Positions 3,505 to 29,303 of a stretch of DNA of 36,280 nt are shown here, in pieces. The stretch is taken from positions 1 through 36,280 of the forward strand of contig JAGCNM010000046.1 in NCBI GenBank assembly GCA_017645955.1, given 5' to 3'. The notes beneath the pieces are model-generated. The model was not told the DNA's origin. It did not search any database and saw only the letters and a list, made by a program, of their open reading frames with translations. How positions within the stretch are numbered: position 1 is the first letter of the stretch; the number at the start of each line of letters is the position of its first letter. This DNA is from Candidatus Saccharimonadota bacterium (GTDB lineage: Bacteria; Patescibacteriota; Saccharimonadia; Saccharimonadales; Saccharimonadaceae). Position numbers and translations under genes: made by a program.

Positions 3505-4554
3505 ATGGAACAAGAGAATAATGCGGCCGGCGTAGTTAACACTCCGCCAGTTGCTCAACCAACACAGCCGGAAGTTGAAACAAACCAACCAGCTCCGGAA
3601 AACATCGAAACAATCAATATTCCGCAATCTCCAGCACCGACCCCCGAAGAAAAGAATAAAAAGCTCTTTATTATAGCTATTGCGGCTGGCGTACTTGCCG
3701 TCGCTGGTCTAGCCTTCGGTATTTACGGCATGACCCGACCGGCTAAAATCTCGAACTTCACAGTCCAAGCAAAAAACGATGAGGGAACTGTTACCGAACT
3801 TAATAAAGACAAAATCGACATCGATGATAAATCTAACACAATTACCATTCCTGACACCTTATCTCCACTCGGCATTAGTAAGGAACTAGCGGCTTCTGTA
3901 GTGAAACCATACCTCCATGACCTTGGCGCTTTCTCTGATATCCTTAACAATAAATTCAATGAGAACAACAAAATCAGAATCGCTTTTCAAAACATCGATC
4001 CTCAAAACCTCCTCTTGTCTACAGGTGATTCATTTAGGGTTTCATATAGTGACCTAAACAATATGTATAAGTATCTTTTTGGCAGTGATACTAATTTGGA
4101 AAAGAAGAATTATAACAACCAAACATTCCTCTATGTTCCAGGCGACAACGCAACATCTGATTACTTCCTCGTCTACCCAGGTGGCTACGGTGGAACAGGC
4201 CTAACAAAATTCACGGCAATTAAAGACGCCTACTTCGAAGACAACAAATTGATAATCGAGATGTACCGTGAAAACCTTTCTTGGTGTGGCATAGTTATTC
4301 CAGAACCTGACGTTTGCGTAGATCAGCAAACCTGGTTCTCCGATAACGACTTTGAGGCGAAGCAAAAAATTATTGAGAAATTTGGCAACAAGTTATCCGT
4401 CAAAAAAATGTATTTTGGTAAAGACAATGGACACTACATTTTAGAATCAATTGTTGATGTAGAAAAAGAATCAGATACAATACCGGACGAAGAGGAAACT
4501 ACTGAAGAAGAAACAACCGAAGAGGAAACTACTGAAGAAGAAACGAAAGAATAA
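3505..4554 (+). CDS. Membrane-anchored protein of unknown function, acidic tail
   Basis: I do not recognise a named family in this 349-residue protein. It has a Pro/Glu/Gln-rich N-terminal segment of about 50 residues, one hydrophobic helix at about 53-75 ('LFIIAIAAGVLAVAGLAFGIYG'-type), an extracytoplasmic domain of about 250 residues, and an acidic tail of repeated E-E-T-T-E units at the end. The orientation (long polar N-terminus inside, domain outside) is inferred. The product at 17149-18060 shares the same layout, a similar membrane helix (LAVAGxAFG) and a similar middle segment (xLNxxYKYxFG... LYxP), so the two are paralogs. Both share a conserved leader. The stop codon lies 1 nt from the end of the convergent tsaD, with no terminator visible between them. 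Confidence 0.8.
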   Translation: MEQENNAAGVVNTPPVAQPTQPEVETNQPAPENIETINIPQSPAPTPEEKNKKLFIIAIAAGVLAVAGLAFGIYGMTRPAKISNFTVQAKNDEGTVTELNKDKIDIDDKSNTITIPDTLSPLGISKELAASVVKPYLHDLGAFSDILNNKFNENNKIRIAFQNIDPQNLLLSTGDSFRVSYSDLNNMYKYLFGSDTNLEKKNYNNQTFLYVPGDNATSDYFLVYPGGYGGTGLTKFTAIKDAYFEDNKLIIEMYRENLSWCGIVIPEPDVCVDQQTWFSDNDFEAKQKIIEKFGNKLSVKKMYFGKDNGHYILESIVDVEKESDTIPDEEETTEEETTEEETTEEETKE

Positions 4555-10867: not shown

Positions 10868-13042
10868 ATGGCTAAACGAAAGCGAAAAACCAACAGACGA
10901 ACAAAAAAAGAGGCTCCAGTCGAGCACGAACTTCCTGGTGGATTCTGGCGTCAAATTACCGCGGTTCTTATGATTGCAGTAGCACTCTTTTTTGTCATCA
11001 CTTGGTTTGGTCAAGGCGGTACCGTCCTCAACGAAATCCATAATTTCTTTTACAAAGGCCTTGGCTTCGCTACCTTCTTTATTCCAGCGCTCCTAGTCTA
11101 TCTAGCGGTTCGCATCTTTCGTTCCGAAGACAACCGCGTAGCTGTCCCAGTTTACATTGCTAGCTTCCTCATGATTATCTGGCTTTCGGGCATCGCCGCG
11201 ATTTGGCGCTTCGGCGGCATCGTCGGCGAATGGCTAAATAACCTTGCGACTAATTTCTTAAGTCAAGGCGTCGTCATTTTTATTTATATTATTCTAATCT
11301 TTATTACGACCGCCTTCATTCTCCAACTTTCTCCTGTCACTTTTTTCAAAGGAACAAAGAATTTAGTCAAACATGGTAAAGCCATAGATCAAGAAGAAAA
11401 GAAAGAAAAGAAACTTGGCGAGCTCGAAATAAAAGTGAATTCCGGCATCGGTCCGCTTGAAACTCCCGCGCCTCAAGAAAAACATTTCCATAAAACTCCT
11501 GCAAAAGCTGAACCAGTCGTCAAACAAGAGGAAAAAGCTCTTGTCGCCGTTTCCGATCCAGATTGGAAAATGCCAAGCACTAATCTCCTCACAAAAAAAC
11601 AATCTCCAGCTGACGCTGGCAACATTCAACAAAACGCCTATATTATTAAAAGTACCTTCGCCGAGTTCGGCATTGATGTTGAAATGGAAGGCGCGAACGT
11701 TGGTCCGCGCGTAACTCAGTATACCCTGCGTGCTCCTGGTGGTATTAATCTCGCGAAAATCGCTGCGCGCGATAAAGAGCTTGCTTATAAACTCTCGGCC
11801 CAAACCATCCGTATCGAAGCCCCAATTCCTGGGACACAATTAATTGGCGTCGAAGTTCCTAATACGCGCGCCGCTTCTGTCTCTCTAAGGGGCATCCTTG
11901 AATCCGATGAATGGCGTAAGAATCATGACCCGCTTACTTTCGCGGTAGGGAAGAACATCTCTGGAAAACCAATCATCGCCGACCTAGCCAGCATGCCACA
12001 TCTCCTAATTGCCGGTACTACTGGTTCCGGTAAGTCTGTTATGACGAATACCCTTATTATGTCGCTCCTTTACCGTAACGCCCCTTCTGATGTGCGTCTT
12101 ATTATTGTTGACCCGAAACAGGTAGAAATGGTCGCCTATAACGACATTCCTCATCTCTTAACCCCAGTCATCACAGACACCTCTAAAGCTCTTTCCGCTA
12201 TGAAATGGGCAGTTGGTGAAATGGACCGCCGTTATAAACAGATGGCCGAGGAGAAGGTTAAAAAGATTTCCGAATATAACAAAAAAATGGAAAAGAAGGC
12301 CGAAGAAGGTGCTAGTGACGAAGAAAAGGGCGGCAAAATGCCATACATCGTTATCGTTATCGATGAAATGTCCGATTTAATGATGCAGGCTAGTAAAGAG
12401 CTCGAGCCATTAATCGTCCGCATCGCTCAGCTTGGCCGTGCTGCTGGTATGCATCTTGTTCTCGCAACCCAGAAGCCGATTGTAAAAGTAATCACCGGTC
12501 TTATTAAAGGAAACATCCCATCCCGCATCGCATTTCGCGTCCTTACATCAATGGAGTCTCGTATTATTCTCGATCTTTCCGGTGCTGAAAAACTCCTAGG
12601 CCAAGGCGATATGCTCCTCTCGACCGAAAAGACCATGAATGGTCCTGAACGTATCCAAGGCGCCTGGACTCCGGATGAAGATATTGAAAAAGTTACTGAC
12701 TTCCTCCGCTCACAACGACCTCCGCAGTATAACGAAGAAGTAATCGCCCAGCAAGTCGCAATTAAGGGAATTGGTGGCGCGAGTGGTGGCGACTTTGGTG
12801 ACCTTGGTCGTCGCTTCGATCCGAATGATCCGCTTGTTAGAAAAGCTGTTGAAATTTCGCTCAGCAAAGGAAAATTCTCTACCGCCATGCTCCAGACATA
12901 CCTCGGCAAAGGCCATGGTTTTGTTTCTGGACTTGCCATTTGGTTTGAGGAAATTGGTGTGATAGGTGTTCAAAACGGCAATAAACCGCGCGAACTTCTC
13001 ATTTCTTCAATGGAAGAATTCGACGAACTAGCTAACAATTGA
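10868..13042 (+). CDS. ftsK: DNA translocase FtsK
   Basis: A 724-residue FtsK/SpoIIIE-type DNA pump that clears chromosome ends from the division septum. Order of parts: basic N-terminus (AKRKRKTNRRTKK), four membrane helices (about 20-165), a short charged linker, the alpha/beta motor with Walker A GTTGSGKS at 383-390, 'IIVDPKQVEM' and Walker B 'IVIVIDEMSDLM', 'ATQKP' and 'RIAFRV', and a C-terminal winged-helix gamma domain ('KFSTAMLQTYLGKGHGFVSGLA'). The gamma domain implies recognition of oriented KOPS-like sequences and possible activation of XerCD-type recombination; a Xer recombinase is encoded at 32139-33077. The motor is followed by a Lys/Glu-rich insertion near residues 460-490. Confidence 0.95.
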   Translation: MAKRKRKTNRRTKKEAPVEHELPGGFWRQITAVLMIAVALFFVITWFGQGGTVLNEIHNFFYKGLGFATFFIPALLVYLAVRIFRSEDNRVAVPVYIASFLMIIWLSGIAAIWRFGGIVGEWLNNLATNFLSQGVVIFIYIILIFITTAFILQLSPVTFFKGTKNLVKHGKAIDQEEKKEKKLGELEIKVNSGIGPLETPAPQEKHFHKTPAKAEPVVKQEEKALVAVSDPDWKMPSTNLLTKKQSPADAGNIQQNAYIIKSTFAEFGIDVEMEGANVGPRVTQYTLRAPGGINLAKIAARDKELAYKLSAQTIRIEAPIPGTQLIGVEVPNTRAASVSLRGILESDEWRKNHDPLTFAVGKNISGKPIIADLASMPHLLIAGTTGSGKSVMTNTLIMSLLYRNAPSDVRLIIVDPKQVEMVAYNDIPHLLTPVITDTSKALSAMKWAVGEMDRRYKQMAEEKVKKISEYNKKMEKKAEEGASDEEKGGKMPYIVIVIDEMSDLMMQASKELEPLIVRIAQLGRAAGMHLVLATQKPIVKVITGLIKGNIPSRIAFRVLTSMESRIILDLSGAEKLLGQGDMLLSTEKTMNGPERIQGAWTPDEDIEKVTDFLRSQRPPQYNEEVIAQQVAIKGIGGASGGDFGDLGRRFDPNDPLVRKAVEISLSKGKFSTAMLQTYLGKGHGFVSGLAIWFEEIGVIGVQNGNKPRELLISSMEEFDELANN

Positions 13043-13073
13043 CGTTTTAATAAATCTTTAATAAAATAAACAT

Positions 13074-13769
13074 ATGGACAATTCGCCATTGAAGAATTTT
13101 TTTGGGAACAAATGGGTCCGTTTAGCTTTAATTCTCGATGTTTTAATCGTGATAACGTTTGTTGTTATCATTATTATGAATCTCTCGAAAACCTCGACCA
13201 TTACTCTAGACGTAACTCCCCTTGATGCTAAAATCCAACTTAACGGGGCAGAGTACCAAAACGGAACAGTCGCTATTGCCCCCGGTACCTATGAAGTGAA
13301 AATCTCTCGCGATAGTCTAGATTCGAAAACATTTTCTATTACTATCGAAACGGGCGACAACCTGACGATCGCCGCCTTCCTGAAATCCGGCACGAATGAT
13401 TTCTCATTCTACAAGCTTAAAGAAAACCTTGATTCCTTCTTTGAACTCGAGAATATTGCCTCTGCAAACAACAATAAAACATACGACAAGGATTCTTCCG
13501 CCGAAGAGTTTGTCGCTTATTATCGCGGTATTTATAAGACGTTATCAACCAAATTCCCGATTGAACATCAGGAATATACCGAAACCGCCAATGGCAGCGA
13601 ACTTGTGAAAGATGTTACAATCAAACCAGTTTACGATGAAGAATGTAAGACGTCTACGTGTATTAAAGCTTTCATGCTTGGCACCGATGATAAAGAGTTT
13701 ATAAAATCTCTCATAGAGAAAAAAGGTCTAAAGGTGGAGGACTATGAAGTCTATTACAAGATTTATTAA
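13074..13769 (+). CDS. Membrane-anchored PEGA-like domain protein
   Basis: A 231-residue protein with one N-terminal membrane helix (about 15-38) and an extracytoplasmic part. Residues about 42-104 resemble a PEGA domain: 'TITLDVTPLDAKIQLNGAEY', 'IAPGTYEVKISRD' and an ending hydrophobic strand. The rest has no recognised fold. The ATG lies 6 nt after TAAAAT (13062-13067), again leaderless. It overlaps the start of the four-domain hydrolase by 26 nt in another frame, so the two are probably translationally coupled and may work together at the cell surface. Confidence 0.75.
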   Translation: MDNSPLKNFFGNKWVRLALILDVLIVITFVVIIIMNLSKTSTITLDVTPLDAKIQLNGAEYQNGTVAIAPGTYEVKISRDSLDSKTFSITIETGDNLTIAAFLKSGTNDFSFYKLKENLDSFFELENIASANNNKTYDKDSSAEEFVAYYRGIYKTLSTKFPIEHQEYTETANGSELVKDVTIKPVYDEECKTSTCIKAFMLGTDDKEFIKSLIEKKGLKVEDYEVYYKIY

Positions 13770-16359
13770 AACTGGCCTATTATTATTTTTCCCAGTGTTA
13801 TTGATGCTCATTACTGAGCCGGCGTTTGCCGAACTTCCGAAGTCTAAACTTAAAATGTTCTCCCAGAACAATATCCTTTTTTACGAACCAGGCGATTGTA
13901 TTGATGGTCCAAGAGGTGGCAGTGGTAGTTTTATGTCTACCATTTGTGGCTCAACGCCGAAGGAAAAATATTGGTCTGCCCTCCGCCAAGTTTTTGACGA
14001 GGAACACGCCGCCGCCGTTCTCGGAAACATTAACCATGAAGGTGGCTTCGGTCCTACTCGATGGGAAATTGGCGTTCTAGTTAGTGGCGATGGCGGCCAT
14101 TTTATTCGTGACTGGAACACATTATATAACTGTACCCCTGGCAACTGTCCTGGTGGCGTCGGTTCATTTGGTATTACCTGGACACTTGGCCCCTACCTTC
14201 AATACATTAATGGTAACGACTCTGGTCTATTACACTACTTCCAAACACCAGAAGAATACAGCTACGCTGGCGACATTGCCATCCAAAAAATCGGTGAAGC
14301 AGATTTCGATCGTCTCGTCGAACTAGAAGTAAGATATGTCTTAAACGAGGCAAATATTGAAGCCTTTAAACGAACCACGTCACTTCAAGAAGCTACCGAT
14401 TGGTGGACGATGAATTACGAAAACTGCGTCGGTTGTTGTGGTAGCGCCGACAGGGATCATTCTTGTGAGTCCGTTCAACCGCGCAGGAACAGTGCTCAAA
14501 AACTCTACGATGAATTTAAAGATTATAACTGTGGTGGTAGTAGCAGTAGCGAAGGCGGAAGCGAAGGTGAAACGGGCGCTGGCGGGTTTGGTAGTGGTGA
14601 TGGATCCAATGTCTCCTTCGATACCTCTTCAAGTTCCTCGGGCCCGTCTCTCACAGGAGCCGAAATCACATTTATCGGCGACAGTATTGCTGTTCAGTCT
14701 GAACAACAACTTGAAGCCAAATTCCCATCTAGCTTTATTAATAAAGTCGGCTCGCGTCATCCGACCTCCGGCGGCGTTTGTCCTGGTGACGAAGGTGGTC
14801 TCGCAATTCTAGAAAAACTCGTTTCTGGTAGTGGCGTCATCATGAACCAACATTCCAATGGTTCTTGTGAGCAGGTTCAAATCAGCTCTAACTCCCTAAA
14901 AAGTAACATTGTTTGGGAACTTGGCACCAACTCTGGCGGTGCAACCGAGGAAACGATTAATAGGGTAATTGGATTAATTGGTAACCGCAGGCTTTATCTT
15001 GTTACTCCGTATAATGGCTACAGTATGGAGTCGGCGGACGGTATCGCTAACATGTACCGCGAAATGGCCGCTAAACATGATAATGTCTTTGTTATTGATT
15101 GGAACCAAGCCGTTCGCGATAATGATTCTGCCTATGTTACGCGTGCTGATTCTATGGCTGTTCACCCAACTGGCGCCGGAAGAGATTTACTTGCTGATTT
15201 AACCGCTCAAGGCGTATCAGGCTCCACGTCCTGCTCTGATAGCGGAGGTTTTGTCTGGTATGGCCAGTACGAAGATGAATGGAAAGACTATCCGTTTGGC
15301 TCTAGTACAGTAGGCCCATCTGGCTGTGGTCCAACCTCCTTTGCTATGATGGCGACTTCGCTTCTTGGCCAATCAATTACACCAGATGAAACAGCAAGAA
15401 TCGCGGGTGATGCTGGTATGTATGTACCAGGTTCTGGTAGTAGCCATGAAATCACCAGGGTATTGTCGGAGCATTATGGCCTAGAATATCAAGCTCTTAC
15501 TGCTTCATCAGCCTCTGAGGCCGTCAGTCTAATTAATCAGTATCTACAAGACGGCTGGATGATTCATACGAGTGGTTCTGGTAGCGCTCCATTCACTTCT
15601 GGCGGGCATTATATTGGTATTCGCGGCATCGCTGAAGATGGCGGCTGGTTGTTAGCTGACTCCGGGCATGAAGAAAGCTACTCAACTCGTTCATGGGATC
15701 CATTGTCGGTCGTTAACGCCGGCATGCTCCTACAAAACATTAAAGCGATTCGTGCCTCATCCTCACTCGCTTCATGTTACAACGCTACTTCTTCGTCCAG
15801 GCTTTGCACAACATCAAATAGTGGTGGTAGCGGTTATAGCGGTGGTGGCGCAACGGGAACTGATGGTTACCAATCAAAAGGCGATGCACAGGGAATTATT
15901 GAAGCCTATAAGAATTTTGACCTCTCGGTCTTTTCGTTAGCAATGCCGGATACCGGAGACTATCATGATAACTGTGTTGCTTTCTCGCTTTGGTTTATTA
16001 ATTATTATACCCAAATCTCTTACGACCCTGGTCGAACCGGAAACGGCAATGAATTTGTTAACGTCTTCTACAGTCACAACAAATCAAAGTATCCTGACAT
16101 GCACATCGACTCAACCCCTTCAGTTTATGCCTTGGCTAGCTGGTCGGTCCCGACACTAGGTACAAGTTCCGGCAATCACACCGGCATCGTTGTTGGTATA
16201 GACGAAGAAAGAGGAAAAATCCTCATCGCAGAAGCGGGATGGAATCACCCGAACTTTACCGGAATACACGAATACAATCTTAGCGACGCAACTGGACCCT
16301 CCGGCTATCAGTATATTAATCTCAACAATTATTTAAAGCCTAACACAGGATTGCAATAA
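13744..16359 (+). CDS. Secreted four-domain cell-wall hydrolase (lysozyme, SGNH, C39-like, CHAP)
   Basis: An 871-residue exported protein. Residues 1-29 are a signal peptide ending AFA. Domain 1 (about 60-245) resembles the phage-tail-tip lysozyme family, with the putative catalytic Glu in 'LGNINHEGGFGP'. After a Gly/Ser linker (about 268-305), domain 2 (about 308-495) is SGNH-like: GDS at 312-314, 'ELGTNSGG', and D469-x4-H474. Domain 3 (about 500-660) resembles C39-like cysteine peptidases, with C528 in 'SGCGPTSFAM' and H622 in 'GGHYIGI'. After a second Gly/Ser linker, domain 4 (about 710-871) resembles CHAP amidases, with C744 in 'NCVAF' and H812 in 'GNHTGIVVG'. Together these could cut glycan and peptide and alter acetylation. 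All four domains seem to keep their key residues. The target wall, self or host, is not known. Confidence 0.85.
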   Translation: MKSITRFIKTGLLLFFPVLLMLITEPAFAELPKSKLKMFSQNNILFYEPGDCIDGPRGGSGSFMSTICGSTPKEKYWSALRQVFDEEHAAAVLGNINHEGGFGPTRWEIGVLVSGDGGHFIRDWNTLYNCTPGNCPGGVGSFGITWTLGPYLQYINGNDSGLLHYFQTPEEYSYAGDIAIQKIGEADFDRLVELEVRYVLNEANIEAFKRTTSLQEATDWWTMNYENCVGCCGSADRDHSCESVQPRRNSAQKLYDEFKDYNCGGSSSSEGGSEGETGAGGFGSGDGSNVSFDTSSSSSGPSLTGAEITFIGDSIAVQSEQQLEAKFPSSFINKVGSRHPTSGGVCPGDEGGLAILEKLVSGSGVIMNQHSNGSCEQVQISSNSLKSNIVWELGTNSGGATEETINRVIGLIGNRRLYLVTPYNGYSMESADGIANMYREMAAKHDNVFVIDWNQAVRDNDSAYVTRADSMAVHPTGAGRDLLADLTAQGVSGSTSCSDSGGFVWYGQYEDEWKDYPFGSSTVGPSGCGPTSFAMMATSLLGQSITPDETARIAGDAGMYVPGSGSSHEITRVLSEHYGLEYQALTASSASEAVSLINQYLQDGWMIHTSGSGSAPFTSGGHYIGIRGIAEDGGWLLADSGHEESYSTRSWDPLSVVNAGMLLQNIKAIRASSSLASCYNATSSSRLCTTSNSGGSGYSGGGATGTDGYQSKGDAQGIIEAYKNFDLSVFSLAMPDTGDYHDNCVAFSLWFINYYTQISYDPGRTGNGNEFVNVFYSHNKSKYPDMHIDSTPSVYALASWSVPTLGTSSGNHTGIVVGIDEERGKILIAEAGWNHPNFTGIHEYNLSDATGPSGYQYINLNNYLKPNTGLQ

Positions 16360-16360
16360 A

Positions 16361-17095
16361 ATGGAAAACAACTCCCCGATTAAAATTAATCCAATAATAG
16401 TAGGTGCGGTTTTTGCTCAAATTATCTTCTTGATTGCTGCTTTCTTCATTTTTAAAAACCTCCTAAGTACAGAACAAAAAATCGCTAAAATTTCAATCGA
16501 TGACTATTCGACTATCGAAAACCTAGAATCCTTTCCGCTCGACCCAACTAAAAAATCGGTCATTGAAGGACAATTAAACAGCATAGTGATACTAAACAAC
16601 CCGGGCATTGCTACTGGCAGCGGTGCAACTATTCGCTCCGGCTCAGTCATTAGCACATATATTAAAGACATCGATGTGCATTATTTAAGCATGATAGTTG
16701 ACTTAAAGAATCTTAATCAGTCTTACCGGCTCGTTTATCGTGAATCGGATACAATCCCGAACCAAGCCGTCCCATCAAACAATCCGGCCATGTTTTTCTG
16801 TGTTCAAGAAAACTTCGGGGAATCAAAGTGTAAAGATGATTATCCAGACAATATCGAAGATCAAATAATTTACGAAATGGTTAGAAATAAAACGTTTAGT
16901 AACTTTACGGTCGGCCTTGCTGGCGACGTTTATAATGGTGAAAAGCTAAGTTTTCGCCTTAACACTCTCTCTGATGACTCATTAGTCATATCTGCCGCCG
17001 AGGATGAACTTTCCGATTATCTCTCTTCGCTTGGCTTTTCGTTTGAGAAGTATGAACATACTGCTGGCAGCTACATTTGTTGCTCTCTAGATTGA
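16361..17095 (+). CDS. Membrane-anchored protein of unknown function
   Basis: A 244-residue protein with a single N-terminal helix at about 10-31 ('IIVGAVFAQIIFLIAAFFIF') and an extracytoplasmic domain of about 200 residues with no recognised family. It contains two cysteines near 'FFCVQENFGESKC' and a 'CC' near the C-terminus. It begins 1 nt after the stop of the four-domain hydrolase, so it is very probably in the same transcript and may be an accessory surface factor. The promoter of the next gene overlaps its stop codon. Confidence 0.75.
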   Translation: MENNSPIKINPIIVGAVFAQIIFLIAAFFIFKNLLSTEQKIAKISIDDYSTIENLESFPLDPTKKSVIEGQLNSIVILNNPGIATGSGATIRSGSVISTYIKDIDVHYLSMIVDLKNLNQSYRLVYRESDTIPNQAVPSNNPAMFFCVQENFGESKCKDDYPDNIEDQIIYEMVRNKTFSNFTVGLAGDVYNGEKLSFRLNTLSDDSLVISAAEDELSDYLSSLGFSFEKYEHTAGSYICCSLD

Positions 17096-17148: not shown

Positions 17149-18060
17149 ATGGAAGAAGAGAAGGTAACTGCTGAAGTTGTTGAAACTTCAACAAGTACCC
17201 CGGAAGTTACACCGGAGAAAACTAAAAATAACAAAGGTCTTATCGCTACTACGATTATTATGACTATTCTTGCCGTTGCCGGGATAGCTTTTGGTGTTTA
17301 CGAGCTGATAAGCCCGAAAGAATGCGCTAGTAAATGTACAAATGATAGCAGCAACGCCTCGAACAGCTTTACAAATGATACAACGGAAAATAATCAGACC
17401 AATATACCTTCGATTCCTGAAGTTCAACAAGTATTGGAAAATAAATATGGCTACAAAGAATTAAGAAACACATTCGGCGGATGCACGATGATGGGCGATC
17501 CGATTTGGGATTGCTTAGGCTCCTTTAATGAAACGACGAAAATGATTTATACCATCATCGCCTCAGATGATCTCATTACTAAAAGTGACCCGTCTGCTCT
17601 ACCAGAAATTATTGGCAATGTTGACTATAATACGCTAAACGAAAAATATAAGTATTATTTTGGTAACGAAAATAACATCTCTAAAGATTTACTAGACACT
17701 GATATAAAGCTTAGCAGTATAATTAAAGTACTCTATCTACCAAATAATGATAATCTCGAAGTACATTTTGTTAGTGGTATAGGCGGCTACACGACATTAT
17801 ATCAATTAAACAAAATCAGCGACGTATCCGGCACAGAAGACAGTTTTACGGTCACAATGTTATCCATGAAGCTAAATTCCATAGCAACTCAAAGTACAAA
17901 AGAGCCCCCCTATACTATGAGTTCAGGAGAAGACGAAAACTATTATATTAATATTCCGGAATCTACTCTTGAAGAATACCGAGAAAGCCTTTCCGAATAC
18001 AACCTTAGTTTCATCAAAGAAGATGGCGAATATAAGCTAATTTCAATCGAAGAAATCTAA
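17149..18060 (+). CDS. Membrane-anchored protein, paralog of the gene at 3505
   Basis: A 303-residue protein of unknown function: acidic N-terminus of about 28 residues, one membrane helix at about 30-52 with the LAVAGIAFG core shared with the product of 3505-4554, a Ser/Asn/Thr-rich spacer containing 'CASKC', and an extracytoplasmic domain. I chose ATG 17149 because the RBS block and promoter lie just upstream; the longer open frame from 17077 would overlap the previous gene and run through the promoter. The acidic E-E-T-T tail of the other copy is missing here. Function not known. Confidence 0.8.
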   Translation: MEEEKVTAEVVETSTSTPEVTPEKTKNNKGLIATTIIMTILAVAGIAFGVYELISPKECASKCTNDSSNASNSFTNDTTENNQTNIPSIPEVQQVLENKYGYKELRNTFGGCTMMGDPIWDCLGSFNETTKMIYTIIASDDLITKSDPSALPEIIGNVDYNTLNEKYKYYFGNENNISKDLLDTDIKLSSIIKVLYLPNNDNLEVHFVSGIGGYTTLYQLNKISDVSGTEDSFTVTMLSMKLNSIATQSTKEPPYTMSSGEDENYYINIPESTLEEYRESLSEYNLSFIKEDGEYKLISIEEI

Positions 18061-20490: not shown

Positions 20491-21537
20491 ATGAACTTAT
20501 TACATGGCGTGGGCGACTTTTTCTCCCTAGACATTGGGACGAATGCAATGAGAATTGTTCAACTTTCTGGCGGTAGCCAGCACGGTTGGACTCTCCAAAA
20601 ATATGCATATGTTCCAATCGATCCGAAACTCACTCAAGATTCTTCCGAAATTGGGAAGAAACGTCTCGGTGAGGCGATTCTTGGTGCTGTAACTCAAGCA
20701 GGTATTAAAACGAAAAATATTGCTGTCGGTTTGCCGGCGAGTAAAACTTTTACTTCTATTGTTGAAACTGATACTCTCCCAGACAAGGAACTAAGAAAAT
20801 CCTTTAAATATGAAATCGATAAATATGTCCCGATGGCGATGAGCGATGCTAAAGCCGACTATATTATTCTTGGGCCTAGCCCGAATGATCCTGCCCGTAC
20901 TGAGGTCCTAGTCAGCTCAGTTGCGAAAGAATACGCTGAATCAACCATGGAAATTATCGAAAAAACAGGTTTGAATATTATTGCTATGGAACCTGAACCT
21001 CTCACTATGGCGCGTTCGCTCGCAATTCCTGGCGCTATCGATGGTACTCTCGTTGTAGATTTTGGTGAAAAATCAACCGATCTCGTAGTCATTTATAAGA
21101 ACCAACCTCGTCTCGTGCGTTCAATCCCGGGCGGTTTTGGTGTTCTTGTAAAAGCAGTCGCTGGCGGTCTTGATGTGCGCGAAGACCAGTCTCGTCAATT
21201 CATCCTTAAATTCGGCCTCGACGAAAATCAAATCGAAGGTCAGGTCTTTAGAACCCTTAACACACATCTTGACAACTTCGCCTCAGAACTTGCTAAATCA
21301 GTTCGCTTCTTCCAGACAAAATACCTTGGCGGTAAAATCGGCGGTATCGTTCTTTCTGGGTATGCTGGTATGGTCCCGCTATTTGCTGAATATATTGAAG
21401 CAAAAACTAACGTTCCAACCATGAAAGGAAATCCGTGGCAGCTTGTCCGTACTACTCCAGAACAACAACAAGCCCTCATGAGTGTCGCTAGCGAATTTGC
21501 CGTCGCAATTGGTTTATCGGAAAGGAGCAATGATTAA
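20491..21537 (+). CDS. pilM: Type IV pilus assembly protein PilM
   Basis: A 348-residue actin-fold ATPase-like protein that recruits PilN on the cytoplasmic side of the membrane. Visible: 'FSLDIGTNAMRIVQL' (phosphate-1 loop), 'IAVGLPASKTFT', 'LVVDFGEKSTDLVVI' (phosphate-2 loop) and 'GIVLSGYAGMVPLFAEYIE'. The TATAAT box at 20479-20484 lies 6 nt before the ATG, so the pilus operon mRNA begins leaderless. The stop overlaps the pilN start by 1 nt (TAATG). Confidence 0.93.
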   Translation: MNLLHGVGDFFSLDIGTNAMRIVQLSGGSQHGWTLQKYAYVPIDPKLTQDSSEIGKKRLGEAILGAVTQAGIKTKNIAVGLPASKTFTSIVETDTLPDKELRKSFKYEIDKYVPMAMSDAKADYIILGPSPNDPARTEVLVSSVAKEYAESTMEIIEKTGLNIIAMEPEPLTMARSLAIPGAIDGTLVVDFGEKSTDLVVIYKNQPRLVRSIPGGFGVLVKAVAGGLDVREDQSRQFILKFGLDENQIEGQVFRTLNTHLDNFASELAKSVRFFQTKYLGGKIGGIVLSGYAGMVPLFAEYIEAKTNVPTMKGNPWQLVRTTPEQQQALMSVASEFAVAIGLSERSND

Positions 21538-22760
21538 TGGCACGCGAAATTAACCTCGTACCCGACATTAAAGAGGAGATGATTAAAACCTTAAAACTTA
21601 GGAATTTCATCTTCTTCCTCTGTATTATTGTTGCTTCAGCTAGTATCGCCGCAGTTGTCATTTTTGGTGGTATCGCCGGTGGTCAACAAATCGCCATCGA
21701 TAATAAAAAGAATGTTCTTGAAACTTTTTCTGATAAACTAAATTCCTACAGTGATTTAAATGAGTTTCTCACCATTAAAGATCAGGTCGGCAACATCGCC
21801 ACTTTAACGAGCGACAAAAAGGTAATCTCTCGAACCTTTAATATTCTTTCCGCTCTAATTCCTCAAAACGGCTTAGATGAAGTCTCGATTTCTGAATTAA
21901 AAATTGACCTTGTAGGCGAAGAAGGACCGAAATTCAAAATCGAAGCTCAAGTTAATGCTGGCCAACCACCATACATTGATTACAACGTCCTAGATTCGAT
22001 TAAAAAGGGTACCAAATATATGCGCTATGATTACGGAAACTACGTCGATAAAGAAGGAGTAACTATTCCAGCCTACTGTATTATCGAAAGAGATTCAGAT
22101 GGGGCTCACTTCGCCGACCCAACCACAAAAGATAAGTACGCCTATTGGACGATTATGGCTGAAGGCTGTAATAATTTAGATGAAAAAGATCTTAAAGAAT
22201 ACTCCGATGACGAGGAAGAAGAAACCGAAAAAACTAACAATGATGAAGAACCACTAGAAATTGGTGGCTATCAATTAGAAGATTATAACGGTACCAAGGT
22301 TGTAAAAATCTGGCGCACTCCACAAAAAAGTTGGTACAAAGAAAACCCTCGTGCCAATCAACCTCAAATGACCGAAAACGGTGAAATCTCTAACGTAGCA
22401 CATTTCGAAAGTCAATGTATTCACTATCAGCTCACTATTAAGAAGGGTGAAGTTACTAAAATCGACGACACTGACAATACTTGTATCCTAATCCCGGGCG
22501 AGACAGACGAAGAACGCTTCCAGATTCTCGAATCCTCAAACGGTCGTGACGCCTCTGATGTATTAGTGCTTCGCTTTGAAGCCGAAATTAAAATTGAGCC
22601 TGAGGTCTTTAACTTCAACAACTCTCACCTTATCGCCCTAGCTCCGCCTGAACGACGCAATGTTACTGATTCTTATGTCCAGATTCAATCATTATTCGGT
22701 CAACGTGCAAAAGATTGCCAAGAAGGCGATACTGCCTGTGGCGCGAATGGAGGGAACTAA
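21537..22760 (+). CDS. pilN: PilN-like type IV pilus protein, enlarged
   Basis: Starts 'MAREINLVPDI', the conserved PilN motif that binds PilM, followed by one membrane helix (about 22-48) and a periplasm-like coiled and mixed domain. At 407 residues it is about twice the usual PilN length; the extra part (about 150-330) includes an acidic linker ('DDEEEETEKTNNDEEPLEIG') and cysteines. Position between pilM and pilO supports the call. The exterior extension may serve envelope anchoring in this cell type; that is inference. Confidence 0.85.
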   Translation: MAREINLVPDIKEEMIKTLKLRNFIFFLCIIVASASIAAVVIFGGIAGGQQIAIDNKKNVLETFSDKLNSYSDLNEFLTIKDQVGNIATLTSDKKVISRTFNILSALIPQNGLDEVSISELKIDLVGEEGPKFKIEAQVNAGQPPYIDYNVLDSIKKGTKYMRYDYGNYVDKEGVTIPAYCIIERDSDGAHFADPTTKDKYAYWTIMAEGCNNLDEKDLKEYSDDEEEETEKTNNDEEPLEIGGYQLEDYNGTKVVKIWRTPQKSWYKENPRANQPQMTENGEISNVAHFESQCIHYQLTIKKGEVTKIDDTDNTCILIPGETDEERFQILESSNGRDASDVLVLRFEAEIKIEPEVFNFNNSHLIALAPPERRNVTDSYVQIQSLFGQRAKDCQEGDTACGANGGN

Positions 22761-22761
22761 A

Positions 22762-23640
22762 ATGCCAAAAGAAATCGCAATTGGAAAAAGAGCCAAGATC
22801 TCGCAAGCCCAACAATACATGATTTTGGCCGTACTCGGCGCCTCACTTGTTCTTGGCGTTGCCGTCTCTCTCGTCGTTCACTTTGTAAAACAAATTTCCT
22901 TTAATACCGAAGTTATTATGGCGGAAGACCAGGCCATTGACGCATACTCCGACGTTATTAAATCAGTCGGTGTTTGTAAAAGCCCGAACGCAAGAGCCTA
23001 CTCAGCCGCTGAACTAGAAGCTTGTGATCCGGATAGTATTACAATTTCAGAAATTCCAGATACGTTGCGCGCAAACGTCCTAGAAACCCTTGCTGCTAAT
23101 GAAGCCTTAAATACTGTTCCGAAGGATTCTGCTTCAAGTTGTATAAATTCTGAAACAAAAAAGAGTTACACTTATGAAGAGTTGAACAAAATTTATAACA
23201 AAGCAAAAACAACAGAAGAGCTAGTTGCTGCTAGCCAACTCATTAAGAGCTGTTCGGCACTTCGCATTATCCCAGACGCCCTTCCTGCCTATAAAAACGA
23301 GGAAGCTCTCCTTGCTAGCCTTGATAAACTCTTCCGTGTATCTGGTGGTGAGCCGGAATCGCTCAGCCCAAGTGGCACCATCGAGGCGTCCGACTTAGCA
23401 GACGGTCTCAACGCTGTTATCGTCAACTTAACTGTTGAAGACGCAACCACAGAAGAAACCATGAAACTCTTAACGAACATCGAACGCTCTATTCGTGAAT
23501 ACAATGTAGTCAATGCAACAATTAGCTGGAGCGGCCCTGAGATTCTTTCACTTCGCGCTCAAGCAACCGCCTTTTATCGCGATGAATCGTCGGTCGTCGA
23601 AGAGGAAAAAACAATAGTATCGGAGGATAAGCAACAATGA
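22762..23640 (+). CDS. pilO: PilO-like type IV pilus protein
   Basis: A 292-residue protein with one membrane helix near residues 20-42 ('MILAVLGASLVLGVAVSLVVHFV'), then a helical external domain and a ferredoxin-like C-terminus ('NAVIVNLTVEDATTEETMKLLTNIERS...NVVNATISW'), the pattern of PilO, partner of PilN. I chose ATG 22762 since GGAGGGA lies 8 nt upstream. Sequence similarity to PilO is weak, so the name rests on fold pattern and position. It ends in an ATGA overlap with the next gene. Confidence 0.75.
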   Translation: MPKEIAIGKRAKISQAQQYMILAVLGASLVLGVAVSLVVHFVKQISFNTEVIMAEDQAIDAYSDVIKSVGVCKSPNARAYSAAELEACDPDSITISEIPDTLRANVLETLAANEALNTVPKDSASSCINSETKKSYTYEELNKIYNKAKTTEELVAASQLIKSCSALRIIPDALPAYKNEEALLASLDKLFRVSGGEPESLSPSGTIEASDLADGLNAVIVNLTVEDATTEETMKLLTNIERSIREYNVVNATISWSGPEILSLRAQATAFYRDESSVVEEEKTIVSEDKQQ

Positions 23641-23945
23641 AAACCGATTTAGCAACAGCCATCATTTCTGCCGTCGTCGGATTTGTGGTTGCCTTTTTCG
23701 TCACAAATTACTTTACTGGCGAAATTCAAGATTTTACCTATACAACAATCACTACAACAGTTGAAGCAAGCCTCGAAGAACCTAACCGCGAAGTGTTTAA
23801 TTATAACGCCCTTAACCCAACCGTCGAAGTCTTCATCGGCTCATGTGCTGAATATAATGAAGTTGGCGAATGTATCGAACGCTATTCCGAAGAGGATGAA
23901 GATAATCTAAACGAAGATTCTGAAACGGACCAGGAGAACTTCTAA
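23637..23945 (+). CDS. Small membrane protein in the pilus operon, unknown
   Basis: A 102-residue protein with one N-terminal membrane helix (about 5-27) and a short external domain with two cysteines (GSCAEYNEVGEC), ending in a very acidic tail. It overlaps pilO by 4 nt (ATGA) and pilB by 1 nt, so it is translated from the middle of the pilus operon. It occupies the place where pilP is found in some bacteria, but shows no lipobox and no PilP similarity that I can see. Possible lineage-specific alignment-complex subunit. Confidence 0.75.
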   Translation: MKTDLATAIISAVVGFVVAFFVTNYFTGEIQDFTYTTITTTVEASLEEPNREVFNYNALNPTVEVFIGSCAEYNEVGECIERYSEEDEDNLNEDSETDQENF

Positions 23946-25708
23946 TGGCTCTTCTAACAAAAGAAGCCGAAGAAAGAATCATCAGCCTTCTTGTTGGTGA
24001 AGGTTTAGCCGACGGAAATTTAGTTAGCTCTATAAAAAGTGAAGCCGACGCAAATGGCGTATCGCCGTTAACTGAACTTTTGAATCGAAAAATAATAAAT
24101 AGCGATATGGTCGCCCATGCCACAGCCGTCATTATTGGTGTTCCATATGTTGAGTTAAAAAACATCACTATCGACCAGGATATTCTCTCAATTATCCCAG
24201 GCGATGCTTCATCGCGCGTCCTTGCTGTCCCGCTCGGCGAAAAAGATGGAATGATTAATATTGCCATGGTCGACGTTACTAACGTCCAGGCAACCGACTA
24301 CATTTCGAACCTAATTAATCAGCCAATCCGAGTTTGGATGTCAAGTGAACGTGGCGTCCGCGAAGTTCTTGAAAAATATCACGGCGATCTTTCCGGTGTT
24401 AAAGAAGCCGTTAAAGAAACCAACAGTGAAGCCTATGAAGAAGCGAAGTCTAACGTCAAAACAATTGTTCAGGATTCGCCAATCAGTAAGGCACTCACTA
24501 CAATCTTAAGCTACGCCGCAAAAACCAAAGCCTCAGATATCCATATTGAGCCACTCGAAAACTCACTCATCATTCGTTGCCGTATCGATGGTGTTTTAAG
24601 AAGAATCATGGATTTGCCTAAAACCGTTGCCCCGGCGCTTGTCTCCCGCATTAAAATTCTAAGTAATCTAAAAATCGATGAGCACCGCATTCCGCAAGAT
24701 GGTCAGTTTAACGTTCTCGTCGACGATAAGGAAATCGATCTTCGTATTGCAATTTCGCCAGTCACTTGGGGCGAGCAAGTCGTTATTCGTCTTCTCGATA
24801 AAAAAGGCGTTTCGATGGAAGTTGATAAAATGGGTATGAGCGGCCGTGCGCTCCGCTCGGTTTTAAATGGTATTAAAAAACCGAACGGCATGATTCTAAC
24901 TTCCGGTCCTACGGGTTCTGGTAAGTCGACCACACTCTATGCTTTAATCCAACAAATTAAATCGGAAGAAATTAATATAGTTACACTTGAGGACCCAGTC
25001 GAGTATAAAATGGACGGCATTAACCAAATTCAAGTTAATGTTGACGCTGGTTTAACATTTGCGTCCGGTCTTCGTTCGATTCTTCGTCAAGACCCTGACG
25101 TAGTAATGGTCGGGGAGATTCGTGACTCTGAAACTGCTGGTCTTGCGGTCCAGGCTGCTCTTACCGGCCACTTAGTGTTCTCAACCCTCCACACCAACTC
25201 AGCTGCAGGTATCTTGCCTCGTCTTCTCGATATGGGTATCGAGCCATTCCTTCTCGCCTCGACCTTGAATGTTGTTATTGGCCAGCGCCTTGTTCGTCGT
25301 ATTACTGAAAAACGTGAAACTTATAAATCATCCGACATTGAAACGAAAGGGATTAATTCAATCGTTGGCGACCTACTCCCTAAAGATAAAGAATCTGTTG
25401 CTAAAGTCAGTGAAGATCTCGGTTACCCAGGCTTACCAGTAAAAACTGACGAACACTATTTATTATCAAAAGGTATGGATTCAAAAGAAACCCCAGGCGG
25501 TTATTCTGGACGTGCCGGTCTTTACGAAACAATTGATGTTGATGAAGATATCCAAAAAATGATCGTCAATCATTCAACCGCTGCCGAAATCATGCGACTT
25601 GCTAGGTCGAAGGGAACTGTAACGATGCGTCAAGATGGCGTTCTTAAAGTTCTATCAGGAATAACAACAATGGAGGAGGTAAACCGCGTTGCGAGTGATT
25701 TATCGTAA
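23945..25708 (+). CDS. pilB: Type IV pilus extension ATPase PilB
   Basis: A 587-residue secretion ATPase of the GspE/PilB family that powers pilus growth. N-terminal domain about 1-150 ('LLVGEGLADGNLV', 'VPYVELKNITIDQDIL'). The motor has 'KASDIHIEPLENSLIIRCRIDG', Walker A GPTGSGKS at 321-328, Asp box 'VTLEDPVEY', Walker B 'DPDVVMVGEIRDSETA' and His box 'LTGHLVFSTLHTNSA'. The C-terminal block has 'GGYSGRAGLYE', but the CxxC...CxxC zinc motif seen in many family members before it is absent. The next gene, pilT, has its own -10 box. Confidence 0.95.
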   Translation: MALLTKEAEERIISLLVGEGLADGNLVSSIKSEADANGVSPLTELLNRKIINSDMVAHATAVIIGVPYVELKNITIDQDILSIIPGDASSRVLAVPLGEKDGMINIAMVDVTNVQATDYISNLINQPIRVWMSSERGVREVLEKYHGDLSGVKEAVKETNSEAYEEAKSNVKTIVQDSPISKALTTILSYAAKTKASDIHIEPLENSLIIRCRIDGVLRRIMDLPKTVAPALVSRIKILSNLKIDEHRIPQDGQFNVLVDDKEIDLRIAISPVTWGEQVVIRLLDKKGVSMEVDKMGMSGRALRSVLNGIKKPNGMILTSGPTGSGKSTTLYALIQQIKSEEINIVTLEDPVEYKMDGINQIQVNVDAGLTFASGLRSILRQDPDVVMVGEIRDSETAGLAVQAALTGHLVFSTLHTNSAAGILPRLLDMGIEPFLLASTLNVVIGQRLVRRITEKRETYKSSDIETKGINSIVGDLLPKDKESVAKVSEDLGYPGLPVKTDEHYLLSKGMDSKETPGGYSGRAGLYETIDVDEDIQKMIVNHSTAAEIMRLARSKGTVTMRQDGVLKVLSGITTMEEVNRVASDLS

Positions 25709-25717
25709 TGTTTGTGG

Positions 25718-25723
25718 TAAAAT
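25718..25723 (+). promoter_or_regulatory. -10 box of leaderless pilT
   Basis: TAAAAT, then ATAGTT, then ATG at 25730. It allows pilT-pilC to be transcribed separately from the upstream operon. Confidence 0.5.
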
Positions 25724-25729
25724 ATAGTT

Positions 25730-26812
25730 ATGGAAAATAGTGGGCAATTAAATACACCAAAAATCGAAACCTTACTTGAAGAATGTATTCGTCGAAATGC
25801 TTCAGATTTACATATTCAATATGGTTTACCGCCAATTCTTCGTATCGATGGCGCCCTAACTCCGATTAGTGGCATTGGTGCTTTAAGTGAAGAAGTCGTG
25901 CGACAATTAGTTTTCGCTACGCTTGATGAAGAACAACAAAAAATTCTAGTTAAAGATAAAGAATTTGATTATTCCTTTGCCTTTGGTGACATTGCGCGTT
26001 TCCGTGTTAATGCCTTCCATGAAAGAGGAAAGTTAGCCGCTGCCTTCCGTCTCATCCCGAATCAAATTCGAAGTATTAACGATCTTGGTATGCCATCAAT
26101 AGTTGAAACCTTTGCCGAGTTTCCGCGTGGCCTCGTTCTCGTGACTGGTCCGACTGGCTCAGGCAAATCAACTACTCTTGCTGCTCTTGTCGATAAAATT
26201 AATCGTGAAAAATCAACTCATATTATTACAATCGAAGACCCGATCGAATTCACCCATAAATCAATTCGTTCTGTCATCGTTCAACGTGAAGTTCATTATG
26301 ATACCTTCTCATTTGCCGCTGCTCTTCGCTCGGTACTTCGTGAAGACCCAGATGTCGTTTTAATTGGTGAGATGCGCGATCTCGAAACTATCCAAGCCGC
26401 AATTACCATTGCTGAAACTGGCCACCTTGTCTTCGCTACGCTTCATACGAACTCCGCCGCTCAATCTATTGATCGTATGATCGACGTCTTCCCATCACAT
26501 CAACAGCCCCAGGTTCGTTCACAACTTTCCAATATGTTGATGGCCGTTTGTGCCCAGCGTCTCGTCCCAGCAATTGCCGGCGGTCGTGTTGTAGCTGCCG
26601 AAATCATGATTGCGAACTCCGCTATCCGTGCGCTTATTCGTGATGGTAAAACTCACCAAATCGATACCGCTATCCAAACTGGCGCCGAGCAGGGAATGCA
26701 GACTATGGACCGCACGTTAGCTAAACTCGTTCAAACTGGTGTAATAACCTACGACTCCGCTCGTGAGTACGCAGTCGATATCAATGAATTAAATCGTTTA
26801 GTAAAGGGCTAA
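25730..26812 (+). CDS. pilT: Type IV pilus retraction ATPase PilT
   Basis: A 360-residue hexameric ATPase that pulls pili back. N-terminal PAS-like part 'NASDLHIQYGLPPILRIDG', Walker A GPTGSGKS at 140-147, Asp box 'ITIEDPIEF', Walker B 'DPDVVLIGEMRDLETI', His box 'ETGHLVFATLHTNSA', and 'QRLVPAIAGGRVVAAEIMIANSAIRALIRDGK', a variant of the AIRNLIRE motif needed for retraction. Presence of both PilB and PilT implies dynamic pili and twitching. pilC starts 1 nt after the stop. Confidence 0.96.
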   Translation: MENSGQLNTPKIETLLEECIRRNASDLHIQYGLPPILRIDGALTPISGIGALSEEVVRQLVFATLDEEQQKILVKDKEFDYSFAFGDIARFRVNAFHERGKLAAAFRLIPNQIRSINDLGMPSIVETFAEFPRGLVLVTGPTGSGKSTTLAALVDKINREKSTHIITIEDPIEFTHKSIRSVIVQREVHYDTFSFAAALRSVLREDPDVVLIGEMRDLETIQAAITIAETGHLVFATLHTNSAAQSIDRMIDVFPSHQQPQVRSQLSNMLMAVCAQRLVPAIAGGRVVAAEIMIANSAIRALIRDGKTHQIDTAIQTGAEQGMQTMDRTLAKLVQTGVITYDSAREYAVDINELNRLVKG

Positions 26813-26813
26813 A

Positions 26814-28019
26814 ATGAAGAGGTTCAATTACAAGGCAAAAGAAAAAGAAACCGGGAAAATTGTTAAAGGTAGCATTCAAGCTGAAACCGAACAAATCGCC
26901 GGCCACCTTCTAATTGACCAGGGTTATATCCCAGACACTCTCGAAGAACAGGGTACTGGTTTGCTTGATAAAAAAGCCCGTATTACCACAAAAGACCGTA
27001 TTACCTTTACGCGCCAAATGGCAACTTTGATTGGTGCTGGCTTGCCACTTGCCTCTAGCCTTCGTACAATTACTGAACAGACCCAGAACAAAAGCATGAA
27101 AGCTATTGTCGAGGAAGTCCTTGCAAGCGTAGAATCTGGTAAAAGTTTGTACGAAGCCTTTTCAAACCATCCTGAAATATTTAATGGCGTCTATCTCGCC
27201 CTCATCCAGGCCGGTGAAACTTCTGGTACACTTGATATCGCCTTGAAACGTCTCGCGGACCAAGAGGAAAAAGATGCTGCTATGATGTCAAAAATTCGTG
27301 GCGCCCTCGTTTACCCAGCAATCATTCTCGTAGTCATCATTGCTGTCCTTGCCTTCATGATGATCGCTGTCGTTCCGCAAGTCGAAGGTCTTTATGAAGA
27401 TATGCATAAAGAGCTCCCAGGCCTGACGCAATTCCTAGTTAATATTACCAACTTCTTTGCTCAATTCTGGTGGCTCGTGTTAATGATTGCCGCAGGTAGC
27501 GTAGTCGGATTAGTTTTCTTCGTCAAACAAACTACCACCGGTCGTAAGCTTATGGATGGCTTTAAGATTAATGTCCCGGTTTTTGGCGGTCTCTTCCGTA
27601 AGCTTTACGTCTCGCGTTTTGCTCGCACGAGCGAAATGATGCTCGCAACCGGCGTTCCAATGCTAGATTCGGTTAGAATCTCTATTGAAGCAGTTAACAA
27701 CACTATCGTAGAAGAAGAATACAGTAAAGCCCTTGAAATCATTAAAGGTGGTAAACCGCTCTCCGAATCGCTAAAAGACAGGGAATATATGCTCCCACTC
27801 GTCCCACAAATGGCGAGTATTGGCGAGGAATCTGGTAAAATCGATGAAATGCTTGGTAAGGCCGCCCAGGTTTACGAAAACGAACTCGATGAACAAATTA
27901 ATAATATTTCGACAATGATTGAGCCGATTCTCATGGTAGTCATGGCTGGTCTCATTGGTGTCGTGGTTGGTGGTACTCTTCTCCCAATCTATTCTCTTGT
28001 TAACTCGGTTAATGTTTAA
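26814..28019 (+). CDS. pilC: Type IV pilus inner-membrane platform protein PilC
   Basis: A 401-residue GspF/PilC family protein. It opens 'FNYKAKEKETGKIVKGSIQAET', has two homologous cytoplasmic helical bundles ('FTRQMATLIGAGLPLASSL' and 'FARTSEMMLATGVPMLDSV') and three membrane helices (about 168-190, 215-238, 370-393), with 'GEESGKIDEML' before the last. It links the ATPases to the growing pilus. Confidence 0.95.
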   Translation: MKRFNYKAKEKETGKIVKGSIQAETEQIAGHLLIDQGYIPDTLEEQGTGLLDKKARITTKDRITFTRQMATLIGAGLPLASSLRTITEQTQNKSMKAIVEEVLASVESGKSLYEAFSNHPEIFNGVYLALIQAGETSGTLDIALKRLADQEEKDAAMMSKIRGALVYPAIILVVIIAVLAFMMIAVVPQVEGLYEDMHKELPGLTQFLVNITNFFAQFWWLVLMIAAGSVVGLVFFVKQTTTGRKLMDGFKINVPVFGGLFRKLYVSRFARTSEMMLATGVPMLDSVRISIEAVNNTIVEEEYSKALEIIKGGKPLSESLKDREYMLPLVPQMASIGEESGKIDEMLGKAAQVYENELDEQINNISTMIEPILMVVMAGLIGVVVGGTLLPIYSLVNSVNV

Positions 28020-28026
28020 ATTGCTC

Positions 28027-28055
28027 TTGATTTTTTCTAAAAATTACGCTATGAT
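28027..28055 (+). promoter_or_regulatory. Strong promoter of the prepilin gene
   Basis: TTGATT (28027-28032), 17-nt spacer, TATGAT (28050-28055). The leader of about 35 nt contains AGCTTAAGCTT and an AGAAAGGA RBS. A separate strong promoter fits a major pilin. Confidence 0.75.
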
Positions 28056-28094
28056 AAGCTTAAGCTTTAAAAATCTACTAGAAAGGATTTATAT

Positions 28095-28658
28095 ATGGCA
28101 AAACAAAATATTAAAACTAAAAAGGGCTTTACGATCATCGAAGTCGTGCTCGTTCTTGCGATTGCGGGTTTGATCTTCCTCATGGTCTTCATCGCATGGC
28201 CAGCATTACAACGTTCACAGCGTGATACACAACGCCGCAACGATTACTCAATGCTTTCGACAGCTATCTCGAACTATGCGACGAACAACAACGGGAAACT
28301 CAAGAACATCATTACGACTAACAACAAGCTCAACCCTGCGACTTATATCAACGCAGAAGGTACTGATCCAAACGGATGGTTCTATGAATTGAAAGTTTGT
28401 GACTTCAGTAACTGGACCTCAAAATGTGGTACCAAACCAGCAAAAGGTGGTGGCACAACAACTGCAACCTGGACTTTGCCAAGTGGCACAAGCTCAACCC
28501 TTACCTTGGGTGCTCAGGTCTACGTCATTATCGGTGCTGACTGTACTGGTAACAAAGATGGCGCTGCTTACCCAGCAAAGAACGTTTCAACCCGTGCGTT
28601 TGCTATCTATGGCTACCTCGAAAGTGGTACTCAAACCTTCTGCTCAGCTAGCCAATAG
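28095..28658 (+). CDS. Type IV prepilin, probable major subunit
   Basis: A 187-residue prepilin. The leader ends KKG and is cut before F in 'GFTIIEVVLVLAIAGLIF', with Glu at mature position 5, followed by the hydrophobic N-terminal helix. The head has two cysteine pairs (VCDFSNWTSKCG and ADCTGN...TFCSASQ), so a C-terminal disulfide loop as in classic pilins is likely. It has its own strong promoter and terminator, suited to an abundant subunit. The first 50 residues are nearly the same as in the convergent prepilin at 28710. Confidence 0.92.
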   Translation: MAKQNIKTKKGFTIIEVVLVLAIAGLIFLMVFIAWPALQRSQRDTQRRNDYSMLSTAISNYATNNNGKLKNIITTNNKLNPATYINAEGTDPNGWFYELKVCDFSNWTSKCGTKPAKGGGTTTATWTLPSGTSSTLTLGAQVYVIIGADCTGNKDGAAYPAKNVSTRAFAIYGYLESGTQTFCSASQ

Positions 28659-28669
28659 TTAAGCTAAAT

Positions 28670-28700
28670 AAAAAATCGCCCCGCCGGGGCGATTTTTTTA
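28670..28700. terminator. Bidirectional terminator between the two prepilins
   Basis: AAAAAATCGCCCCG-CC-GGGGCGATTTTTTT forms a strong GC-stem with A-run and T-run on opposite sides, so it can end transcription in both directions between the convergent prepilin genes. Confidence 0.95.
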
Positions 28701-28709
28701 TATCTTCTT

Positions 28710-29303
28710 TTATAAGTTTGCGCAGTAAGAACCTGGCCCTTCCATTTTATAAGTCACAGCAGCTTTCTTAGGATTACTAGACGAAACCACGATTGAGCCA
28801 TTACAGGTTGCACCCTTTATGATGTACATCTTATATCCATTTGGGAAATTCAAATCTTGAACTGTCCCATTGGTGTTTCCTTTAATACTCGTACAAGCTA
28901 CTCCAACCCCGACAACATTACAATCCTTAATTGTTAGTACATATTTTTTATTATCCGCACCAGCAAGCGGATCCGCGAATGTTTCGCCTAAGAATGACTT
29001 ATACAGTCCCGCCCAAGTAGTTTCGCCGGCTTGAGCAGCTGAAGCATTAGTCCATGTCACGTCTCCAGTCGTACTTGATGAAGATGCGGTAAGCTTTTCA
29101 GGGAATGCTCCACGATTATTGCTCTGATACTTTTGAATTGCTGTTAATAGAGCCCCGACATCATCGCGCCTTTTAGCGTCTCTTTGTGTCCTTTGTACTG
29201 CGGGTAAGGCGATAAATACCATTAAGAATATTAGACCCGCAATCGCAAGCACCAACGCTACCTCGATCATCGTAAACCCCTCATTAGAATCTCTTTTTTC
29301 CAT
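28710..29303 (-). CDS. Second type IV prepilin
   Basis: A 197-residue prepilin on the opposite strand. The leader ends NEG before 'FTMIEVALVLAIAGLIF', with Glu5 conserved. The N-terminal helix and 'QRTQRDAKRRDD' region closely match the prepilin at 28095, but the heads diverge apart from the two cysteine pairs ('DCNVVGVGVACTS', 'GATCNG...SYCANL'). The duplication and divergence suggest an alternative major pilin or a minor pilin. Promoter TTGATA-16 nt-TATAAT on the minus strand and an AAGGAGA RBS. Confidence 0.92.
   Translation of the reverse strand: MEKRDSNEGFTMIEVALVLAIAGLIFLMVFIALPAVQRTQRDAKRRDDVGALLTAIQKYQSNNRGAFPEKLTASSSSTTGDVTWTNASAAQAGETTWAGLYKSFLGETFADPLAGADNKKYVLTIKDCNVVGVGVACTSIKGNTNGTVQDLNFPNGYKMYIIKGATCNGSIVVSSSNPKKAAVTYKMEGPGSYCANL

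Follow-up and report, generated by a model that had tools for sequence, protein, structure and literature searches.

The protein encoded at positions 13744-16359 of the window (the whole 36,280-nucleotide stretch of Candidatus Saccharimonadota DNA that was analysed) belongs to a mix-and-match, fast-changing family of exported wall hydrolases, which share a short tag behind the signal peptide and whose genes often lie beside a type IV secretion system (T4SS). It is probably a VirB1/PrgK-type wall hydrolase that docks by its tag and opens the wall at the site of contact. The main additions to the first-pass annotation are the tag, the family with its shuffled modules, the conservation of the partners and the T4SS linkage; the OatA type of the SGNH domain is likewise new to it. 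The features of the cassette are as follows.

13039..13067, + strand: promoter-like site TTGACG-17-TAAAAT, a consensus match only
13074..13769, + strand: PEGA-domain anchored partner (231 aa), from Pfam PEGA in the family, AF2 and the family alignment
13744..16359, + strand: tagged multi-domain wall hydrolase (871 aa), with a 26 nt overlap with the PEGA gene
13744..13830, + strand: Sec signal peptide, residues 1-29, from the sequence, with the cleavage site placed by eye
13834..13899, + strand: post-signal tag LPKSKLKMFSQNNILFYEPGDC, residues 31-52, common to members with differing catalytic modules
13939..14529, + strand: phage-tail lysozyme (gp13/PrgK-MUR type), residues about 66-262, E99, from Pfam, profile and conservation
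14650..15222, + strand: OatA-type SGNH domain, residues about 303-493, S314/N396/H474 (D469 likely), from phmmer, fold and conservation
15238..15723, + strand: C39-like cysteine peptidase domain, residues about 499-660, C528/H622/D639, from Pfam and conservation
15865..16341, + strand: CHAP domain, residues about 708-866, C744/H812/E830, from conservation, family Pfam matches and fold
16361..17095, + strand: second anchored partner (DN244 family, 244 aa), with a TM helix and an ectodomain

The open reading frame is present in the window DNA, and behind its signal peptide (MKSITRFIKTGLLLFFPVLLMLITEPAFA) the gp13-type phage-tail lysozyme, OatA-type SGNH, C39-like and CHAP domains follow in that order, separated by Gly/Ser linkers that are visible in the sequence. 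The earlier reading of four wall-active domains after one signal peptide is borne out by Pfam, fold matches and conserved catalytic residues. In Pfam the lysozyme domain scores 31.4 bits against Phage_lysozyme2, above the cut-off of 28.2. When 11 lysozyme domains of the family were combined into a profile, this matched phi29 gp13 (3csr) at E 2.9e-7; E99 aligns with E45 of gp13, and the Glu of the GNxxxE motif is kept in 31 of 32 family domains. Unlike gp13, the window protein is not in a virion. The C39-like domain matches Peptidase_C39_2 (43.4 bits; cut-off 24), with C528 in 14 of 14 and H622 in 15 of 15 aligned members. Pfam CHAP gives no match for the window protein itself and is found in 12 of 54 family members (E <= 0.001); in a model of modest confidence, the C-terminal domain resembles the S. 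aureus CHAP amidase 5t1q (VIA-align Z 10.3), and its site is conserved in the family alignment (C744 24/24, H812 24/24, E830 21/24). The fold evidence comes from the CHAP and SGNH parts, which are the better modelled; over its full length the AF2 model, made from a 4-row alignment, is of low quality, with a mean pLDDT of 44. Two further candidates were rejected, namely a phage origin of the whole protein, because no relative occurs in viral contigs and phage or plasmid records match the C39 part only, and a multi-domain wall enzyme from a goat-gut metagenome (PMC5146660), because its domain set differs.

The SGNH domain is matched weakly by Pfam, below threshold (0.0026), and is tied by phmmer to the C-terminal domains of OatA proteins, which it also resembles in fold (VIA-align Z 10.1 for S. 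aureus and 9.8 for the pneumococcal domain; values 10.1, 10.1 and 9.8). The GDS motif holds the nucleophile S314 and the GTN motif holds N396; in the family alignment S314 is conserved in 27 of the 28 members without a gap there, N396 in 26 of 32 and H474 in 31 of 32, so that the Ser-Asn-His set of OatA is retained. The first-pass annotation had named D469 and H474 as the catalytic pair; the histidine holds up well, and the acid is less clear, because the window protein has D469-x4-H474 where relatives have D-x2-H, in a loop longer by two residues. The domain is homologous to the SGNH domains of OatA type that are fused to AT3; the Acyl_transf_3 membrane domain is absent from the window protein in Pfam, whereas it is present in proteins of other loci (L065, L071-L075). 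We know of no extracellular acetyl donor for the OatA-type SGNH domain of the window protein, and its use as a de-O-acetylase is more likely than its use as an O-acetyltransferase. As a separate observation, a full OatA-like protein with Acyl_transf_3 plus SGNH is encoded in the same genus (L065 4170-6008, - strand), so cells of the genus may O-acetylate their own wall.

To judge by homology, the window protein would be an exported enzyme with glycan- plus peptide-cutting domains. A close known counterpart is PrgK of pCF10, a multi-domain wall hydrolase of a T4SS, which combines a phage-tail-lysozyme-type muramidase with LytM and CHAP domains and binds the membrane-anchored, VirB8-like PrgL, by which it is probably targeted to the T4SS (PMC11323569). 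In vitro, only the muramidase of PrgK is active, and its CHAP and LytM domains regulate it (PMC11323569); by analogy, intact residues in the window protein may not mean four activities. The window protein differs from PrgK in having a signal peptide and the family tag, with SGNH and C39-like domains instead of LytM, and its cassette has a membrane-anchored PEGA partner in place of VirB8-like PrgL and is unlinked to a T4SS.

The tag, of about 20 residues directly behind the signal peptide (FSQNNILFYxP; consensus F-x-Q-N-N-I-x-F-Y-x-P), defines the family. Searches of 60 related genomes, with reading of the loci, gave tagged exported proteins of about 260-1140 aa; the tag-motif profile matches 31 of these 60 genomes, every one in the window's genus, and 62 of 199 genomes of the taxonomic family. 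Among 54 tagged proteins, Phage_lysozyme2 (25), Glucosaminidase (17), CHAP (12) and C39_2 (8) are the commonest modules, and NlpC (4), Amidase_2 (4), GDSL (4), M23 (2) and VanY (2) are rarer. Module order varies, and modules differ even between close relatives; among the proteins examined, all four modules of the window protein occur together only there and in its three nearest homologues (L032, L033 and L069). When the 54 members are aligned, only four columns are conserved at 90% or more, and two of them lie in the tag (N42 and I44).

The two anchored partners accompany this family. The PEGA partner consists of a TM helix (13-37), a beta sandwich (about 41-106) and an alpha/beta C-terminal domain (about 160-231), with an AF2 mean pLDDT of 74; Pfam PEGA is found in 10 of 15 members of its family, at best with 3.4e-6. 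A fold search relates the sandwich to transthyretin-like/CNA-B domains (best Z 6.6) and gave no clear match for the C-terminal domain, which may or may not have a VirB8-like fold. The DN244 ectodomain has no Pfam match, and a profile search for solved-structure relatives of the partners yielded none useful. The C-terminal parts of the DN244 and PEGA families are weakly related (hhalign 83%, E 9.3e-6), and some partner proteins are matched by both profiles. Of 49 tagged genes, 34 have a PEGA partner no farther than 6.5 kb away, and DN244-family genes adjoin many tagged genes. The suggestion that the flanking anchored proteins hold the hydrolase therefore gains a conserved gene association and may be correct; the suggestion that they inhibit it is not favoured, because one alignable partner family goes with quite different catalytic modules. 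Two more anchored proteins, alike at their N-termini, are encoded at 3505-4554 and at 17149-18060 of the window, the latter following the cassette.

The cassette probably begins with a leaderless transcript from the promoter-like site, whose -10 box lies 6 nt ahead of the ATG of the PEGA gene. TATAAT-like boxes lie 3-8 nt ahead of the start codons at 203, 1159, 13074, 25730, 29373 and 30163 of the window, and also ahead of the first genes of many cassettes in relatives; their closeness to the starts suggests leaderless transcripts.

Linkage to the T4SS is a property of the family. The 36 genomes of the genus that were compared hold 49 tagged genes, of which 21 have virB4 no more than 5 kb upstream, always on the same strand, where a simple random-placement model expects about 0.2; these counts, like those for the order given below, take all genomes regardless of relatedness and do not represent independent events. 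A hydrolase with a divergent tag is found at several further virB4 loci, and four genomes (L104-L107) have no hydrolase at virB4 and carry tagged genes elsewhere. Across the order, 56 of 82 Phage_lysozyme2 places share a contig with virB4, and 52 of these 56 genes lie 0.25-5.6 kb downstream on the same strand. Proteins with SGNH and lysozyme domains (in part also C39) occur a few kb past virB4 in two other families (L060 and L061), and the order is virB4-PEGA-hydrolase-DN244 in the relative (G010, L078) that reaches the highest partial-length identity, 39%. In a further family, a 1194-aa protein encoded between virB4 and the hydrolase (L063 6228-9812, - strand) has an SGNH domain at 877-1053, as if an esterase module had been fused to a T4SS-locus protein.

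In the genome of the window, a single strand carries in succession PrgI (L067 1799), a further open reading frame, virB4 (3708), a tagged glucosaminidase (5554) and a PEGA partner (6768). This T4SS-linked copy is a 404-aa protein with a Glucosaminidase domain, encoded directly after the virB4-type ATPase gene, and the PEGA partner gene is succeeded by dnaJ and RNase Y genes. The window gene itself sits between ftsK and rpsF, away from this locus. Tagged proteins linked to virB4 have a median length of 489 aa, against 868 aa for unlinked ones (Mann-Whitney p 7e-4), and the window protein is a duplicated, expanded and quickly evolving paralogue of the T4SS-linked copy that stands off the T4SS locus. 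The window also contains a type IV pilus/secretion-type locus (20491-29303), at the end of which two related pilin-like genes face each other (28095-28658, + strand, and 28710-29303, - strand); at 30163-32142, a protein of 659 aa with a pilin-like N-terminus followed by surface-like repeats is, by eye, a candidate pilus-linked adhesin.

The source is a rumen-type metagenome-assembled genome of 912 kb, and the nearest named full-length homologues are from Candidatus Saccharibacteria MAGs, one labelled sheep jejunum. Saccharibacteria are known as epibionts, and by analogy with cultured relatives the host would be an actinobacterium. Between genomes, the median identity is 87% for VirB4 and 44% for the best tagged protein; in the genome of the window, the best match of the T4SS-linked copy has 69% identity and that of the window protein 31%, the latter being its nearest full-length relative, for which VirB4 has 93%. 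The host wall is a likelier target than the cell's own wall, given that divergence and shuffling of the modules far outpace change in the remainder of the machine, although rapid divergence could instead reflect relaxed constraint. With this divergence and the T4SS linkage, host-wall breaching, as the first-pass annotation had proposed, is better motivated than before and plausible.

The wall that is opened could nevertheless be the cell's own. An autolysin for remodelling or daughter-cell separation, held near the septum by the flanking anchored proteins, would suit such anchoring and would account for the position after ftsK, which recurs in another genome where a tagged pair lies in the same ftsK-rpsF interval (G001); we regard this as unlikely, since the cassette has its own promoter-like site and other positions in most genomes, the modules differ between close relatives, unlike those of a housekeeping autolysin, and the family is linked to virB4. 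That linkage, together with the precedent of PrgK/TraG, would equally fit an enzyme of VirB1 type that only opens the own wall for the channel or pilus and has no action on a host; a compact T4SS-linked copy is already present in the genome, and divergence is much slower in it than in the window copy, which makes a role confined to assembly improbable.

Immunity proteins usually track one toxin, and here PEGA and DN244 partners of the same families are encoded beside hydrolases that differ in their catalytic modules. A secreted killing factor for which one flanking protein confers immunity is accordingly a most improbable reading, even though the modular variation resembles that of polymorphic toxins and anchored neighbours could protect the producer; a Sec signal is present, and the constant part is a short tag directly behind it. 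The favoured explanation, a tag-docked VirB1/PrgK-type hydrolase acting at the contact site, has points against it as well: the window copy lies off the T4SS locus, although its paralogue follows virB4, the SGNH acid has an unusual spacing, and autolysins and division hydrolases are also multi-domain, while the window gene comes after ftsK.

According to the tag-docked model, the protein would be one of the peptidoglycan hydrolases by which T4SSs of Gram-positive-like cells are served. The signal peptide would be cleaved and the N-terminal tag would dock on the PEGA ectodomain, on the second anchored protein or on both, so that the enzyme would stay with the membrane or the T4SS/contact site and not be lost to the medium. 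O-acetylated sugars often block muramidases (PMC11323569). The SGNH domain would strip the O-acetyl groups of MurNAc, the gp13-type lysozyme would cut the glycan, and the cutting of stem peptides or cross-bridges would fall to the C39-like and CHAP domains, with all modules acting in synergy. The resulting local gap, more likely made in the wall of the contacted host cell than in the own wall, would give passage to a secretion channel, a pilus or nutrients. It is possible, and we suggest it tentatively, that the tag with its PEGA and DN244 anchors represents a docking system not yet described, in which a mount that stays constant takes exchangeable wall-cutting modules; these would act as the drill bit at the T4SS/contact site and help to set which host walls can be breached.

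Ca. Southlakia epibionticum, strain ML1, cannot grow as an epibiont without its T4SS genes (PMC10633639), and according to a 2025 survey that cites the ML1 work, the genes shortly after virB4 in this strain include homologues of peptidases and lysozymes that are reportedly essential for such growth (PMC12102498). These share the position downstream of virB4 with the present hydrolases; they are described as peptidase and lysozyme homologues and not as members of a tagged, shuffled family. In the same survey, VirB1 homologues show little association with VirB4 in most classes, and its authors suggest that pilus biogenesis may not need VirB1 (PMC12102498). The wall hydrolase that recurs in many Saccharibacteria a few kb past virB4 is offered as the VirB1 analogue that was mostly not found there. 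In the window's genus its N-terminal tag is diagnostic and membrane partners go with it, so that defined, testable genes are at hand. The family bears on the way in which epibiotic Patescibacteria pass the walls of their hosts, and the OatA-type SGNH module that has been added might help to overcome walls whose O-acetylation blocks lysozyme.
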